IMG/VR virus record: IMGVR_UViG_3300028925_003641
Coordinates: 1 to 27,180 of that record
Source of the DNA: a virus
DNA: 27,180 bases
Direction: 5' to 3' (one strand)
The position numbers and the translations under genes are program-made. Under the pieces are notes generated by a model. That model saw nothing but the letters and a program-made list of their open reading frames with translations. It did not search any database and was not told the DNA's origin. Shown piece after piece: positions 4,958-20,467 of this stretch (position 1 is the stretch's first letter; every line of letters starts with the position of its first letter).

Positions 4958-4986
4958 ATTATAACACAAAGAAGTCTTTGTGTCAA
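4958..4986 (-). promoter_or_regulatory. Early promoter P3 for the gp45 replisome operon
   Basis: TTGACA (4986..4981), a 17-bp spacer and TATAAT (4963..4958), both hexamers perfect. The start would fall near 4951, giving a leader of about 35 bases to the gp45 ATG. A 9-2-9 inverted repeat fills the spacer (listed separately). Confidence 0.9.
4964..4983. repeat. Operator-like inverted repeat inside the gp45 promoter
   Basis: Perfect 9-base arms (ACACAAAGA and TCTTTGTGT) flank a 2-base centre. The repeat fills the whole -35/-10 spacer, overlaps three bases of the -35 and abuts the -10. This is the geometry of a repressor site for a dimer, although a cruciform or chance origin cannot be excluded. 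Confidence 0.7.
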
Positions 4987-12517: not shown

Positions 12518-13575
12518 ATTGCTAGGTCTTGGGCTTCCATGTAGAGTTGTCTTTGTAGATTTTTGAGTCTTCCCTTATCTAAAGAGGTTTCTAACTCATC
12601 AATATACAGATTCAAAATTGTCATTGTATCTTGTGTGTTTGCAACAATATCATCGGATACTGTATTTGCATCTAAGTCTGAAAAGTCTTCTATGACTTTG
12701 ACTTCATGGCAATCTGCTTGTAATAATCTATCAACAAATTGGTCAAACTGATATAAATCTTTTTTATTTACAACAATGACTTTAACATAATTATGTTTGT
12801 ATTGAGAAATGTCGTGTTTTTTATAATCAGTATCGGTGTCGTCATAATATATTTTCTTGTGTATTGTCAGTGGATTTATAATACGATCTAGTTCTCGTGT
12901 CTGTGTATCAAATATATGAAATCCTTTTTTATCATCACAATCATTCCAATAAATTTCATATGGATTGCCGAGATAGAAAATATGACCATCATCAGATTTG
13001 ATGTGGAAATGACCACTAAAAACAGTATCAAACTTTCTAAACAAATTCTTATCATATCCATTTTGATTTTTTACTCCTTTAAGCATTTCAAAACCTTGAA
13101 CTTCAAGATGTCCCATTAAGATGTCTGCTTTTGATTTTTCCATAGCAGACATGGTTTCAGCTTGATTGGAAGCATTAATCCAAGGCACTAACATAATTGG
13201 TGTATCATCAAGTACAATCTCTTTTGCTTCTGGATAGATATGCACATTACCGTATCTTGTACCAATCAGTTCTGTTATTGAATTTACTTCGTTAGTATTT
13301 TTAAAATAAGTATCGTGATTACCAACAAGAATATGAAGCTCGATACCCAAATCTGAGAATGGTTTGATAAACCTTTCTCTGAAATTCTTTGCGGTTCTAT
13401 ACGAAACAAACTTACGCCTGTCCATAATGTCGCCTAAGTGAAGGCAGTGTGTAATATTATTATCTTTTAGATATGGAAAGAATTGTTCTTCATAAAACTT
13501 AAAAAAATATTCACTAAAATTTTGGTTGTCATTTCTAGCTCCAAAGTGTGTGTCGTTGATTATTGCAACCTTCAC
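12514..13575 (-). CDS. 47: Recombination endonuclease subunit gp47 (SbcD/Mre11-like)
   Basis: The 353-aa protein (T4 gp47 is 339) is the metallophosphoesterase nuclease subunit that works with gp46. The two-metal site is complete: D8 and H10 in NDTHFG, D49 in HLGDIMDRR, N86-H87-D88 in GNHDTY, H155 in MGHLE, and H189/H191 in SGHFH. The start overlaps the end of gp55 by four bases and the end overlaps gp46, giving a coupled 55-47-46 operon. Placing the nuclease directly behind the late sigma factor matches the order known in marine T4-like phages. Confidence 0.97.
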   Translation of the reverse strand: MKVAIINDTHFGARNDNQNFSEYFFKFYEEQFFPYLKDNNITHCLHLGDIMDRRKFVSYRTAKNFRERFIKPFSDLGIELHILVGNHDTYFKNTNEVNSITELIGTRYGNVHIYPEAKEIVLDDTPIMLVPWINASNQAETMSAMEKSKADILMGHLEVQGFEMLKGVKNQNGYDKNLFRKFDTVFSGHFHIKSDDGHIFYLGNPYEIYWNDCDDKKGFHIFDTQTRELDRIINPLTIHKKIYYDDTDTDYKKHDISQYKHNYVKVIVVNKKDLYQFDQFVDRLLQADCHEVKVIEDFSDLDANTVSDDIVANTQDTMTILNLYIDELETSLDKGRLKNLQRQLYMEAQDLAI

Positions 13576-14117
13576 TCATCGTCCTCCATAAAATTTTCTA
13601 ATCCTTTAGGTTTTGTTACTGATTCTTTCTTCTTCGGTTTATAAACAGCTTCGTCTGGCACCATTATGTGTGGATCAAATCCCCCAACAACATATACTGT
13701 ATCATCACCCTCGTTATTAACATGTTGCACAAATTCTTGTGATTGAATTAACATATGTTTTACATGAGTTTGTTTTTTTTCTTTTTGAATCCTACGGAGA
13801 AATGCATAGTAAATGATTTGCGTAAAGTAAGAAAATGGATTCTTAGATTTTTCTGGATCAAAATTATGAAGATATTGCAGACAGTTTTCAATACCATCTG
13901 AAATCATTTCTTGTCTATAAGTATAATTAATAAAGTTAGGTCTGTAAGATAGACCATTAGCAATCTTTAAAAAACACTCACCTATGTATTCTGTAACTCT
14001 GGGTTTGGGTTCACCCATTTCTTCGGCTTCACGACAGTCTTCTTTCCAATCAATCATCGCTTGATGAAAAACCTTATTATCAACATAGTGAGCACCCTTT
14101 ACTTTTTTGGCCGCCAT
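13572..14117 (-). CDS. 55: Late-transcription sigma factor gp55
   Basis: This is the T4-type late sigma factor (181 aa; T4 gp55 is 185). It binds host core RNA polymerase and recognises TATAAATA late promoters, activated by the gp45 clamp through a co-activator, gp33 in T4, which is not in this window. The sigma-region-2 portion is visible as RQEMISDGIENCLQYLHNFD followed by NPFSYFTQIIYYAFLRRI, and the C-terminal tail LENFMEDDE is acidic, like the clamp-binding tail of gp55. The ATG has an AAGGA Shine-Dalgarno sequence and promoter P7 lies directly upstream. Four or five matching late boxes in this window are its likely targets. Confidence 0.95.
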   Translation of the reverse strand: MAAKKVKGAHYVDNKVFHQAMIDWKEDCREAEEMGEPKPRVTEYIGECFLKIANGLSYRPNFINYTYRQEMISDGIENCLQYLHNFDPEKSKNPFSYFTQIIYYAFLRRIQKEKKQTHVKHMLIQSQEFVQHVNNEGDDTVYVVGGFDPHIMVPDEAVYKPKKKESVTKPKGLENFMEDDE

Positions 14118-14230: not shown

Positions 14231-14935
14231 CTAAGTAGCACTTCTCAACAACATGTTGCGAATGTGTCCAATTGCTCGAGTTGGATTTAATCCTTTAGGG
14301 CAAACTGCAACACAGTTTTGAATTCCATGACAACGAAATACACTAAATGGATCTTGTAAGTTGGATAATCTATTTTCAGTATCATTATCTCTTGTATCTG
14401 CCAAGAAGCGATAAGCCTGTAGTAGACCAGCAGGCCCAATAAACTTGTCTGGATTCCACCAGAATGAGGGGCAACTTGTTGAACAACAAGCGCAAAGTAT
14501 GCACTCGTAAAGTCCGTCTAGTTTTGCTCGATCTTCAGGTGACTGCAATCTTTCTATGTCTGGTGCAGGATTGTCATTGACGAGATAAGGTTGTATTTTT
14601 TCATACTGCGCGTAGAACTGACTCATATCTATAACAAGGTCACGAATTACAGGAAGGCCGGGCAATGGACGAATAACTAATTTATTGTTTTTTACACACT
14701 CGGACAGAGGAGTTATACAACCAAGTCCATTCTTTCCATTTATATTCATACCATCGGAACCGCATACTCCTTCACGACAGGATCTACGATAGGAGATAGA
14801 AGAATCTTTAGCCTTTAACATACCCAATACATCAAGAACCATAAGGTCTTTTCCTTGAGTATCAAAGTCATAATCCTGCATATAAGGCGATTCGTCTGTT
14901 TCAGGATTATATCGGTAAATACTTACTTTCAACAT
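14231..14935 (-). CDS. sdhB: Succinate dehydrogenase iron-sulfur subunit SdhB
   Basis: The 234-aa protein is a full-length SdhB (E. coli SdhB is 238), the electron-transfer subunit of respiratory complex II, which carries electrons from SdhA-bound FAD to quinone. All ligands appear intact: [2Fe-2S] C53, C58, D61 and C73 (aspartate at the third position as in E. coli); [4Fe-4S] C145, C148, C151 and C212; [3Fe-4S] C155, C202 and C208. Residues matching the E. coli quinone site (P156, W160) and H203 are kept. PLPGLPVIRDLVIDMSQFY and the NPTRAIGHIR ending resemble beta/gammaproteobacterial rather than alphaproteobacterial SdhB, which has CGSC in the first cluster and PLPHMPV. No sdhA, sdhC or sdhD is nearby, so it would have to enter the host complex. 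It lies between the small acidic unknown and gp55; the 82 bases upstream hold only a poor late-box match, so it is probably read through from upstream. The ATG has AAGGAT about ten bases away. Confidence 0.96.
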   Translation of the reverse strand: MLKVSIYRYNPETDESPYMQDYDFDTQGKDLMVLDVLGMLKAKDSSISYRRSCREGVCGSDGMNINGKNGLGCITPLSECVKNNKLVIRPLPGLPVIRDLVIDMSQFYAQYEKIQPYLVNDNPAPDIERLQSPEDRAKLDGLYECILCACCSTSCPSFWWNPDKFIGPAGLLQAYRFLADTRDNDTENRLSNLQDPFSVFRCHGIQNCVAVCPKGLNPTRAIGHIRNMLLRSAT

Positions 14936-14960
14936 AATACGATAAATCCTTATTTACCTA

Positions 14961-14989
14961 TTGACAATGGGGGGGAAAGTGGATATAAT
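14961..14989 (+). promoter_or_regulatory. Perfect sigma70 promoter facing rightward (antisense)
   Basis: On the plus strand TTGACA (14961-14966), a 17-bp spacer and TATAAT (14984-14989), a perfect consensus match. The spacer contains a run of seven Gs, unusual in this AT-rich DNA. No plus-strand gene follows: the first ATG (15021) opens an 11-codon frame only. It would transcribe antisense to the gene at 15018-15431 and on into uvsW. Confidence 0.65.
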
Positions 14990-15017
14990 AGAACTTGTAG
15001 GTTCTTCAGAATAATCT

Positions 15018-15431
15018 TTAATGTCTTGTTGCTATACTTATATCATATTCTTGTAGTTCTTCTTCTGCTTCATCATAAGATTGTTGGAACTCTTGTTCTT
15101 CAATAATTTCTAATTCTTCTTCGGAAGGTTCTAGCTTGACTAATTCCATTCTATGAATACTTCTAATAACATATTCATAATACCTAGACAGACCAATACT
15201 CGCAGGAGTCATAATTACAATGGAACTTTTTTCTATTTGGAAAGTTTCTTCGTCTGAGTATGGTTGCAACCATCTTCCTAAAGCTAATGATTCAGCTGCA
15301 CCGCTAGAAGTAACCTTACTGATAGTTTCCATTTTTAAAGGAGCAGAGATTTTAAGTTGTGTGACTTGATTTTCCACGACAGTACATATGATGTCTTCAC
15401 CATTAGAAAGTTTTACAACTTGATATATCAT
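15018..15431 (-). CDS. Small acidic protein with a possible Sm-like N-terminus
   Basis: The 137-aa product begins MIYQVVKLSNGEDIICTVVE, which has the look of an Sm-like or SH3-like small barrel (VKLxNGEDIICxV), and ends in a strongly acidic Glu-rich tail (about residues 105-132). I know of no assigned function; proteins of this kind occur near uvsW and gp55 in marine T4-like phages. I take ATG 15431 as the start because GAGGG lies seven bases before it; an upstream in-frame TTG (15437) has no such support. A one-mismatch late box (15455-15462) precedes it. It is followed after 82 bases by sdhB, with the antisense promoter in between. Confidence 0.75.
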   Translation of the reverse strand: MIYQVVKLSNGEDIICTVVENQVTQLKISAPLKMETISKVTSSGAAESLALGRWLQPYSDEETFQIEKSSIVIMTPASIGLSRYYEYVIRSIHRMELVKLEPSEEELEIIEEQEFQQSYDEAEEELQEYDISIATRH

Positions 15432-15454
15432 AAGCAATCCCTCATTTCTTCTTT

Positions 15455-15474: not shown

Positions 15475-16929
15475 TCACAACTTCACTTTATCAATCTTAT
15501 GTTTAAAGTCTTCTTCTTTATATATTTTTAATCTTGCTTTAAAGTGTCTTAGCGTAAAATTAGGTCTAGACTTATAAGAAAGATCGTCTGATAAATCATA
15601 GAGTTTAACTGTTTGTTTGCCTTCAAGCTGTCTTAGACCCCTACCGATTGACTGCAAGACTCGCACTCTACTTTTAGATGGAGAAGCGAATACGATGTTA
15701 TTAATATTACGAATATTGACACCTGTAGAAAATGTACCATAAGATGCAACAATAATAGCATTTGTTTCTTTTTCAGTAATTTCTCGAACCTGTTCTCTTG
15801 CTTCTGTAGTTGTTCCACCATGAACAAAGAAAACCTTTCTATCTAGTTTATTAATTTCACCATATAACAAAGCTCCATGTTTGCCAACTAGTTGAAAAAG
15901 ACACAGAGTATTTCCTGATATTGACTTGCAAAGTTTCTCTATAAATGCATTTCGTTTTGGGTGAGAAACAATATAATTTATTTCTTCTGCATAAGTATAG
16001 TTACGAACTCTTTTGGATTCTTCTTCTGTGTGTTTTAGTACAACACAGTTTATTTCTAAATCTGCTAGAGTCTTACTGTCCATTAATTTTTTTGTGGTTG
16101 TAACTTTCTTAACTTGACCAAACAAACCCTCTAAAACTAATCTGTGTGTTTCTGTTCCATCAAGTGTTCCTGTTAAACCAAATCTATACTTTACATCTCT
16201 ACTCTTAGCCATAATATCTGTTAGAGATTTTGCTTTAAATAAATGTGCCTCATCTCCAATGATACAACCAAACTGGGCAAAGTATGGAGAATGAAGTTTG
16301 TAGATTGATTGCCAAGTTGAAATAATAACAGGTTTGGTTTTATGATTCTTATCTCGTCCAGCATAAACACGATGAATGTGTTCGTCCTTCCATCCATAGT
16401 CAATAAAGTCAGAATATAATTGTTCAACAAGAGATGTGGTCGGAACCAGAATAAGCATCTTTAATCCCATCAGATGATAATATCTAACCAGCGTGTAAAT
16501 TATCAGTGACTTCCCCGAAGCCGTAGGAGATAAAAGAAGACAACGATTTGTTTTGATTGCGTGATGAATTGCTTCTAGTTGGTAATCACGAAACTGAATA
16601 GGTTTACCCCTAGAGGTTGGTCGCAATGACTCAGCAAATTCTTTTACATTTTCAATGTTAACATTCTTGTCGTCTTCTACACCTTCTTCAAGGGTATACT
16701 CAATTGAGTTTTTCTTACAATACTCCTTTATATAAGGTAAAAGTCCAACATAAATCCTACCATTGCGTGGAGAAAATAATCGTATCTTTCCGTCCCAAAT
16801 CCTATTCTTAAAACTGGGCATAAACTTGGCGCCCGGCACTTCAAAGGTAAAGTAACTACACAGCTCTCTTGCCAAGTCTTCCTCAACATCACACTCAAGA
16901 TAGACTTCGTTTATCTTTGATATTTTCAT
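15475..16929 (-). CDS. uvsW: UvsW helicase
   Basis: This is UvsW, a superfamily-2 RNA-DNA and branched-DNA helicase that in T4 unwinds R-loops and promotes fork regression and the shift from origin- to recombination-dependent replication. From ATG 16929 the product is 484 aa (T4 503). The N-terminal domain resembles the T4 start (CSYFTFEVPGAKFMPSF, NRIWDGKIRLF). Then come Walker A SPTASGKS (134-141), DEAH (226-229), FGLTGTLDG and the C-terminal QSIGRGLRQ motif VI. An upstream TTG (16944) would add five residues, but ATG 16929 overlaps the oxygenase stop as TAATG, indicating coupled translation. In T4 uvsW is late; here it sits in the unit that begins at the late box before the tube-like gene. 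Confidence 0.96.
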   Translation of the reverse strand: MKISKINEVYLECDVEEDLARELCSYFTFEVPGAKFMPSFKNRIWDGKIRLFSPRNGRIYVGLLPYIKEYCKKNSIEYTLEEGVEDDKNVNIENVKEFAESLRPTSRGKPIQFRDYQLEAIHHAIKTNRCLLLSPTASGKSLIIYTLVRYYHLMGLKMLILVPTTSLVEQLYSDFIDYGWKDEHIHRVYAGRDKNHKTKPVIISTWQSIYKLHSPYFAQFGCIIGDEAHLFKAKSLTDIMAKSRDVKYRFGLTGTLDGTETHRLVLEGLFGQVKKVTTTKKLMDSKTLADLEINCVVLKHTEEESKRVRNYTYAEEINYIVSHPKRNAFIEKLCKSISGNTLCLFQLVGKHGALLYGEINKLDRKVFFVHGGTTTEAREQVREITEKETNAIIVASYGTFSTGVNIRNINNIVFASPSKSRVRVLQSIGRGLRQLEGKQTVKLYDLSDDLSYKSRPNFTLRHFKARLKIYKEEDFKHKIDKVKL

Positions 16930-19061: not shown

Positions 19062-19069
19062 TATTTATA
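19062..19069 (-). promoter_or_regulatory. T4-type late promoter for the tube-like gene
   Basis: TATAAATA on the minus strand (19069..19062), an exact match. It lies directly downstream of the gp23 terminator. Its predicted start is within a base or two of the ATG at 19056. Confidence 0.8.
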
Positions 19070-19083
19070 AAGAAAAAAAAGAC

Positions 19084-19108
19084 AAAAAAAAGGAACCCGA
19101 AGGTTCCT
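19084..19108 (-). terminator. Intrinsic terminator after gp23
   Basis: On the minus strand a 7-bp stem (AGGAACC with GGTTCCT) closes a TTCG tetraloop and is followed by seven Ts (19090..19084). It lies 25 bases after the gp23 stop. The UUCG loop and U tract make this a textbook rho-independent terminator, which would limit readthrough of the abundant capsid message. Confidence 0.92.
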
Positions 19109-19132
19109 CTTTAAGTACTTTAAAAACAAGTC

Positions 19133-20467
19133 TTACATCAAGTTTGAAACTTTTACTTTTCTGTAGTACTTGTTGGTTGCAGATGATATAGCAATCGCAC
19201 CATTTGAACCAGCAGCGACAGTACCAGTTGAGAAAGGATTTGCAGCCATTCCGTAACGAGTTTTGAAGCCGATTTTTGGTTGGAAAGTATTTTCACCAAC
19301 CGCACGAACCATTTGTAATGGAACATATGGGCAGTAGAACATACCAGCGTCATAAGGTGAAGTACCTTTATAACCAACAACATAGTACTGTGAACTAGAT
19401 ACGTTAGCAGAGTATGGATCAACATACACTTTATAACGACCATTCATAACACCAGCGAATGTAGTTGAAGTATCATCAACATTCAAGTTGTTGTTTAATG
19501 CAGGAGTGTAATCAAGTACACCAGCCATTTGAAGTGCAGAAGCAACATCAGCAGATACTAGTAACATATTACCTTTACCGCGGCGAGTTTGTTGACCGAT
19601 AGCGTTAGCATCTCGTTCAATTGCAAACATCAAACCTTTAAACTTCTCAACTGACCAACGACCATTTGAGTCGGTGTCCAAATCGAAAATACCAGCAGTA
19701 GTTGTGTTAACCTGAGCACCTTTAACAGCAGATACATAGATGTTACGAACAACTTCTCGGTTAATTTCAGCGAGGATTTCAGATGAAAGTATATTTGCAA
19801 GTTCGGTTTCTGCGTCAAGACCATGAATTGCTTTAAGGTCTTGTGCAAGTTCCATAGTGTACTCAGCTTTAAGGGCACGAGTTACAGCAGTAACAGTGTG
19901 CTTCTCAATTGAGAACGCCATTTCACCGAAAGCATTAGTTCCTGAATCACCAAGTGCTTCACCTTGAACTGTAGTCTGACCAGTAGCACTTGTGTAAGTA
20001 CCAGCTGAAGGACTGTCATTCAATGTAGCAGGGTTGGTTTCAGTTGCACCAATGTCTCCACCACCAATAGTACCGGCAGCGTTTTGGTTAGATATATCTG
20101 GGAATGCTTCATCGGCAAGTGCTTCAGCACCGTCCATTGATGCGAAACGAGCACGCATTGCAAAGATAAGTCCTGTGGGGCCTGTCATAGGTTGTACACC
20201 ACAGATGTCGTATGCGATAAGATTAGGCATAGAGCGTCTTACTAGAGAGATCAAAATGGGATCCCATGTATCTAGTGAAGCATTACCACCAACAAAGTTG
20301 GTAGATACTGTTTCGTTTAAGAAGTTCTTGTCTTCTCTTAGAGCTTTTTCTTGGTTTTCCAAGATGATTGTAGTGACGGCGCGCTTGTAGCTATCCTTGA
20401 TCTCAGGAAGATCAGGGTGCTGAAGGACTGGCTGCCACTTTTCTTGTAGATGTTCTGTCTGAAACAT
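19133..20467 (-). CDS. 23: Major capsid protein gp23
   Basis: This is the HK97-fold major capsid protein of T4-like phages (444 aa; T4 521). Family landmarks are DTWDPILISLVRRSMPNLIAYD near the N-terminus, the GVQPMTGPTGLIFAMRARF segment, and a C-terminal domain with DPYSANVSSSQYYVVGYKG and FKTRYGMAANPF. In T4 the gp21 protease removes a 65-residue propeptide after a (I/L)-x-E site; here L50-N-E52 before TVSTN is a plausible cleavage site (inference). It has its own late promoter (20493-20500), an AAGGAG Shine-Dalgarno sequence and a strong terminator, fitting very high late expression. Confidence 0.98.
   Translation of the reverse strand: MFQTEHLQEKWQPVLQHPDLPEIKDSYKRAVTTIILENQEKALREDKNFLNETVSTNFVGGNASLDTWDPILISLVRRSMPNLIAYDICGVQPMTGPTGLIFAMRARFASMDGAEALADEAFPDISNQNAAGTIGGGDIGATETNPATLNDSPSAGTYTSATGQTTVQGEALGDSGTNAFGEMAFSIEKHTVTAVTRALKAEYTMELAQDLKAIHGLDAETELANILSSEILAEINREVVRNIYVSAVKGAQVNTTTAGIFDLDTDSNGRWSVEKFKGLMFAIERDANAIGQQTRRGKGNMLLVSADVASALQMAGVLDYTPALNNNLNVDDTSTTFAGVMNGRYKVYVDPYSANVSSSQYYVVGYKGTSPYDAGMFYCPYVPLQMVRAVGENTFQPKIGFKTRYGMAANPFSTGTVAAGSNGAIAISSATNKYYRKVKVSNLM

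Follow-up and report, generated by a model that had tools for sequence, protein, structure and literature searches.

Antisense promoters of phage lambda such as paQ use early antisense transcription to delay a late or lytic regulator, the target there being an antiterminator gene. In Escherichia coli, synthetic antisense promoters fire back on a gene and repress it in proportion to their strength, according to the accessible text of PMC4731013, but these were built by design and have a unidirectional terminator placed ahead of them, whereas ahead of the site described below none was seen or sought. Here we describe a promoter that fires backwards in a 27,180-nucleotide stretch of viral DNA (IMG/VR record IMGVR_UViG_3300028925_003641, positions 1 to 27,180; hereafter ‘the window’). 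This promoter, P_rev, stands in front of no gene of its own and is aimed, from the 3′ end, at a DNA-repair gene pair made up of GC139 and the helicase gene uvsW. Judged by its sequence and by its retention across relatives, P_rev is a conserved, putatively early-type promoter antisense to GC139 and uvsW, and its placement is suggestive of an antisense switch, built in where late genes meet early ones, in many marine relatives of T4.

T4-like myoviruses are ubiquitous in the sea (accessible part of PMC3037559). The closest described parallel within the same phage family is CfrI, an antisense RNA of ~225 nt at the psbA - homing endonuclease locus of cyanophage S-PM2; it differs from P_rev in lying at another locus and in having been demonstrated experimentally, with confirmation limited to S-PM2 in the accessible portions of PMC2984593 and PMC5931967. 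A second likeness is the T4 oriE promoter, likewise early and of the sigma70 type, with an RNA believed to have a role other than encoding protein (accessible text of PMC3016281); it differs in its neighbouring genes and in the iterons near oriE, while P_rev is free of any compositional sign of an origin. Antisense transcription in Kyanoviridae also receives a mention in PMC10976474, which cites Stazic 2016. CfrI and this mention were the only accounts of antisense RNA in marine T4-like phages found in the openly accessible literature searched; no report of P_rev itself was found there, and the accessible sections of PMC3037559 and PMC5082946 do not mention the site.

In the window, P_rev reads TTGACA-ATGGGGGGGAAAGTGGA-TATAAT on the + strand at 14961-14989, matching all 12 consensus bases with a spacer of 17 nt, exactly as the original prediction had it. 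The setting that it described also holds: all open reading frames (ORFs) longer than 148 aa lie on the - strand, the promoter sits in the 82-bp gap between the start of sdhB (14935) and the stop of the next gene (15018), and it faces GC139 (the ‘small acidic gene’ of that prediction) and uvsW. The window contains four perfect TTGACA-15/19-TATAAT sites, a number that shuffles put at 0.09; P_rev is the sole rightward one and the other three are on the - strand. Five fetched loci of the lineage to which the window belongs, found on three other contigs (L001/L082, L047/L081 and L080), carry an identical 29-mer, including a run of seven G in the spacer. In a sister lineage, whose sdhB is 93% identical (L083-L089), 7/7 loci retain the two hexamers at a spacing of 17 nt, with a spacer that agrees with the window at just 6/17 bases and has no G run.

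Separately, one of the other perfect promoters of the window, at 4958-4986 (-), has a perfect 8-bp inverted repeat, ACACAAAG-ACTT-CTTTGTGT, within its -35 and spacer, possibly an operator.

Conservation was assessed in loci drawn from IMG/VR by searches with uvsW, sdhB and two gp55 alignments (the uvsW and both gp55 sets supplying 80 loci each among the matches listed), to which five named phages were added. There were 241 loci matching gp55, the late sigma factor gene, of which 238 had adequate upstream sequence and 170 formed a non-redundant set; in each, the best reverse promoter within 260 bp before gp55 was scored, with 3400 dinucleotide shuffles as control. A reverse promoter matching at least 11 of the 12 consensus bases was found in 106/170 loci, compared with 0.56% of shuffles, and a perfect one in 39/170. 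The corresponding figures for the forward promoter of gp55 were 95/170 and 11/170, so P_rev matches the consensus no less closely than gp55's own promoter does. The window lineage scored 9 in this 260-bp scan and is outside the 106 P_rev loci, where the spacer measures 17 nt in 86, 16 in 13 and 18 in 7.

Between 130 pairs of sister loci, per-site change came to 1.3% in the -35, 6.4% in the -10 and 24% over the ten bases that precede the -35, the pairs being non-independent and their first member picked for a good promoter; spacer change was 34%, within a range preset by restricting pairs to 30-85% spacer identity. A sense-strand gene ends by the reverse -10 in 105 of the 106 loci, and in 104 the distance is 10-79 bp, so that P_rev opposes a gene and is directed towards GC139 and uvsW, the layout of a cis-antisense promoter. 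Together, hexamer conservation and the placement of P_rev in loci with inserted genes (below) indicate that it is kept as a site apart from coding sequence. In four complete genomes (HTVC008M, Mosig, Syn1 and Melnitz), whose genes were delimited by a simple ORF rule, antisense promoters of at least 11/12 occurred in 3/150 same-direction gaps of 50-400 bp, all three being P_rev, and sense promoters of that quality in 32/150. Chance as the origin of P_rev is ruled out by the shuffles, the family count and the conservation of the hexamers between sister pairs. The G run, which the original prediction had called odd, is present as described; the idea that it carries meaning is rejected, since the spacer is the freely changing part of the site and a G or C run of at least six appears in the spacer of 1/106 P_rev loci (L005, C7).

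Loci with genes inserted beside P_rev reveal which neighbour it accompanies. GC139 is recognisable in 157/170 loci, and in 16 of them 360-985 bp and other genes separate it from gp55. In 13 of these 16 non-independent loci, which represent a handful of cargo types, P_rev (at least 11/12) lies no more than 130 bp from the GC139 stop, and in nine it is perfect; a reverse promoter of that quality within 150 bp of gp55 was found in 0/16, and the forward promoter (at least 11/12) remains at gp55 in 9/16. P_rev therefore goes with the 3′ end of uvsW-GC139 and does not accompany gp55, and what lies between it and P55, the promoter of gp55, serves as an insertion slot. Among the other 141 loci, 99 have a reverse promoter of at least 11/12 near the end of GC139, and in one locus where GC139 was not recognised (L173) an 11/12 P_rev stands at the end of uvsW itself. 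In relatives without sdhB, which have the order uvsW-GC139-gp55-gp47-gp46, P_rev and P55 stand back to back between GC139 and gp55. The cargo types comprise sdhB (window and sister lineage), nucleoside-2-deoxyribosyltransferase-like, 2OG-Fe(II) oxygenase-like, HAD-phosphatase-like and ThiS-like proteins and unknown small proteins. Loci whose slot holds such differing cargo, with deoxyribosyltransferase-like, 2OG oxygenase-like, HAD-like and ThiS-like proteins, are L175, L176, L179, L181, L183, L201 and L288.

Two attributions of P_rev are rejected on these grounds: that it belongs to sdhB, a gene missing from nearly all of the loci with P_rev, and that it is a feature of the gp55 promoter alone, given the placement in the 16 loci. 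In the window, sdhB is instead, as its position indicates, cargo in the insertion slot behind P_rev. The original prediction had named in advance, as a test, conservation in relatives with and without sdhB, and P_rev is retained in both; its suggestion that antisense transcription might silence sdhB is not supported, because sdhB lies behind P_rev, whose RNA cannot be antisense to it, and is one of several cargo genes. The features around P_rev in the window are as follows.

14961-14989, + strand: P_rev, sigma70-type promoter, with -35 TTGACA at 14961-14966, a 17-nt spacer and -10 TATAAT at 14984-14989
14990-15005, + strand: inverted repeat AGAAC-TTGTAG-GTTCT over the expected start (~14996)
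15018-15437, - strand: GC139 gene (‘methylamine utilization’, Sm-like); phrog_471, E 2.4e-12; PF16243, E 8.7e-5, under the curated cut-off of PF16243
15475-16944, - strand: uvsW helicase gene, second gene antisense to P_rev
14951-14958, - strand: late-promoter-like box GGTAAATA, 16-23 nt before sdhB, a consensus match only
14231-14935, - strand: sdhB, for the iron-sulfur subunit of succinate dehydrogenase; cargo lying between P_rev and P55
14148-14176, - strand: P55, the promoter of gp55, TTGACA-17-TAGAAT, 11/12
13572-14117, - strand: gp55-like late sigma factor gene; phrog_234, E 1.5e-62

The name T4-GC139 for the phrog_471-type family is that used in cyanophage records, and GC139 is the first gene to which an RNA from P_rev would run antisense. 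The late-like box before sdhB is only two bases away from the -35 of P_rev; the two almost touch, so they could exclude each other, and a polymerase sitting on P_rev could at most block this box. sdhB is borne by T4-like marine phages, and in 31 (L090-L120) of the 41 sdhB loci fetched none of uvsW, GC139, gp55, gp47 or gp46 was found alongside, placing them in other neighbourhoods.

The promoter recurs, at 12/12 in HTVC008M and Mosig, 11/12 in Syn1, S-MbCM6, Syn9, P-SSM2, S-RIM2 and S-PM2, and 10/12 in P-HM2. Sinorhizobium phage phiM12, whose record does not class it in Kyanoviridae, has a 12/12 P_rev with a 16-nt spacer in the order uvsY-uvsW-hypothetical-gp55. The site is absent from T4-like RB33, whose gene order differs, and from Stenotrophomonas phage Moby, where the gap is 12 bp. 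The first base of the -35, some 35 nt downstream of which an antisense transcript would be expected to start on the strand opposed to the genes, lies at these positions:

Syn9, NC_008296.2: 123733
P-SSM2, NC_006883.2: 124840
P-HM2, NC_015284.1: 120744
S-RIM2, KX349270.1: 121155
Syn1, NC_015288.1: 123000
HTVC008M, KC465899.1: 80295
Mosig, MT647606.1: 21318
S-PM2, NC_006820.1: about 84474 (derived)

Other perfect promoters opposing the main gene direction were seen in two of the complete genomes. HTVC008M (KC465899.1) has two more, at 19462 (-) and 23571 (-), with similar spacers that both contain TATTTATCTG, and Melnitz (MZ577097.1) has a row of three at 72881-73060 (-); no same-strand ORF of at least 50 aa starts within 250 nt of either the HTVC008M pair or the Melnitz row.

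A repeat immediately after the -10 is often retained with changing letters, as in the sister lineage (AGGAC-TT-GTCCT) and Mosig (AACGG-TGT-CCGTT), and TGT often falls at about the expected start in the repeats of relatives. Stems of at least six pairs were found in 52/106 loci, compared with 339/2120 simple shuffles, when G-U pairs of the P_rev strand were allowed, and in 15/106 when those of the opposite strand were allowed instead; in L265, L283 and L285 the repeat is broken, as judged by eye, with TGT and GTTCA retained. Transcription usually starts ~7 nt after the -10, so only the second half of the repeat would be in the RNA and its action as an RNA hairpin is doubtful; with the first arm upstream of the normal start, the repeat may act through DNA or through RNA.

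Activity of P_rev as a promoter finds indirect support in the combination of promoter and start-site motif, which can stand before genes elsewhere. In Syn1 a second copy at 16507 (89% over 47 nt) lies in sense orientation before a row of small genes. The cyanophage form TTGACA-17-TANAAT-NACTCTGTNAGGGTTCA occurs in at least 120 contigs; among the matches listed, P_rev accounts for 98, sites near gp55 for 3 and other places for 19, and these 19 reduce to 15 distinct sites, 11 of which have a same-strand ORF of at least 60 aa starting within 250 nt. Downstream of P_rev itself no consistent ORF exists in the 106 loci (lengths 0-101 aa), an arrangement unlike that of a gene promoter, and the idea that it drives a hidden gene is rejected for this reason.

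The reading we favour, with confidence about evenly divided for and against, is that P_rev works as a host-sigma early promoter, lies where the late pair uvsW-GC139 has its 3′ end, and fires backwards to repress the pair until gp55 takes over. Early in infection the polymerase of the host, carrying the principal sigma factor, would read P_rev and yield a non-coding RNA antisense through GC139 and uvsW; polymerase traffic, RNA pairing or both would hold the two genes down; and once gp55 was made, late transcription would take over and release them. Antisense repression of the late pair, or collision with its transcripts, is the likely role of the promoter, and that uvsW would stay silent until gp55 appears is the part of the original prediction's proposal that we retain. 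sdhB would have come between P_rev and P55 in this phage and left P_rev undisturbed. Such restraint makes biological sense, because UvsW, if made too soon, would take apart the RNA-DNA hybrids from which replication of the T4 type begins, and by analogy with T4 its early appearance would be harmful: the T4 protein is expressed from a late promoter and unwinds origin R-loops (accessible text of PMC3016281). Late-like boxes stand before GC139 in 57/146 loci and before gp55 in 6/170, which agrees with a late unit facing an early one.

Several observations weigh against this repression of uvsW-GC139. Reverse promoters fall under 11/12 in 64/170 loci, 25 of which score 9 or less in the scanned 260 bp, some owing to other genes located there; Melnitz, the closest named phage by gp55, has no P_rev; and in three of the 16 loci with extra genes it was not found at GC139 (L262, scoring 8; L176, 10; L204, 9), the extra gene of L262 resembling, by eye, a second GC139-like protein. 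The close tie to the upstream stop is broken in phiM12, where P_rev lies ~210 bp past that gene, and in S-CRM01, whose best candidate, at 10/12 with a TGT repeat, is ~350 bp past the GC139 stop and 40 bp behind an extra small gene, inside which an 11/12 site falls. A late-like box precedes uvsW in 1/28 loci only, with none in the window, so the late timing of uvsW in these phages rests on T4. Finally, the window RNA folds no better than shuffles, and the start-site inverted repeat is predicted by neither RNA pairing nor collision.

Other roles can be imagined for a promoter so placed. As a boundary element, P_rev would fire on late transcripts where the block of structural genes ends and stop them by head-on polymerases before the early replication genes gp55-47-46, setting their 3′ end and leaving uvsW unrepressed. 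The site does mostly stay at the GC139 3′ end, and in Syn9 and P-HM2 it divides the structural genes, uvsY, uvsW and GC139 on one side from gp55-47-46 on the other; moreover, sense terminator-like sites were found in just 10/140 gaps (0/140 in simple shuffles). The cargo beyond P_rev speaks to the contrary: in 13 such loci a late-like box was found in 2/13, only before sdhB, and the best forward sigma70-like score was at most 10 in 13/13, so that cargo has mostly no visible promoter of its own and some late transcription probably passes P_rev. We regard a boundary function as possible, if on balance unlikely. One terminator-like hairpin of 11 pairs with a T-rich tail lies elsewhere in the window, at 19062-19112 (-), closely followed by a TATAAATA late-promoter box. 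Coupling to gp55, in which the back-to-back promoters compete for polymerase or share supercoiling and so time gp55, would fit -35 boxes that commonly overlap or lie within a few bases of each other (Syn9 and S-RIM2 included). The insertion data weigh most clearly against this among the rivals, since in 13/16 loci P_rev remains with GC139, separated by hundreds of bp from gp55, and none is left beside gp55; in the window itself 785 bp separate the -35 boxes, and we give the idea a very slim chance.

P_rev might also serve through its RNA alone. An RNA forming an R-loop that primes leading-strand synthesis, as the early promoter of T4 oriE is supposed to do, would account for the lack of a gene to drive and for the proximity of uvsW, whose T4 product destroys origin R-loops; against it, an origin has no need to follow the GC139 stop, and cumulative G-C, plotted in 2.5-kb steps, shows no turn at P_rev in the three complete genomes carrying it, a strand-composition shift being reported for oriE, oriF and oriG, not for oriA and oriC. 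An origin promoter is thus quite improbable in our estimation. An RNA that shields late mRNA from host RNase E by pairing, as proposed for other cyanophages, finds a precedent in PMC10976474, whose accessible text mentions such protection, citing Stazic 2016, alongside antisense transcription in Kyanoviridae; P_rev also occurs in SAR11 and Sinorhizobium phages and no test here favoured protection, which we rate as highly improbable. Least probable of all is a small RNA or very small protein as the product. The start-site repeat is often kept, and phiM12 has a 50-aa ORF on the same strand after P_rev (L449, 2113-2265, -), which in a translated search of the phage collection appeared in 5 records, all Sinorhizobium phages. 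Set against these are the want of a consistent ORF after P_rev and of terminator enrichment in the first 500 nt (20/137 versus 17 in simple shuffles).

Selection has retained this one antisense promoter among cyanophages and among phages of SAR11 and Sinorhizobium, usually where uvsW-GC139 ends, and it offers a precise place at which to test the timing of the late switch and of replication mode. Infection RNA sequencing that could serve this purpose already exists, reportedly including sets for Syn9 and P-SSM2. Data for P-HM2 count sense and antisense reads (accessible part of PMC5082946), and strand-specific libraries exist for S-PM2d (accessible part of PMC5931967). More tentatively, a dedicated antisense promoter in marine and at least one Sinorhizobium T4-like phage may delay the R-loop-destroying UvsW, with the adjoining stretch a landing slot for metabolic cargo; we think this broader claim possible and, taken whole, rather doubtful. 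The locus points to a slot where cargo genes land and leave a control element unbroken and, if the delay of UvsW is real, P_rev would be a DNA-encoded, repressor-free timing switch between origin-started and recombination-started replication.
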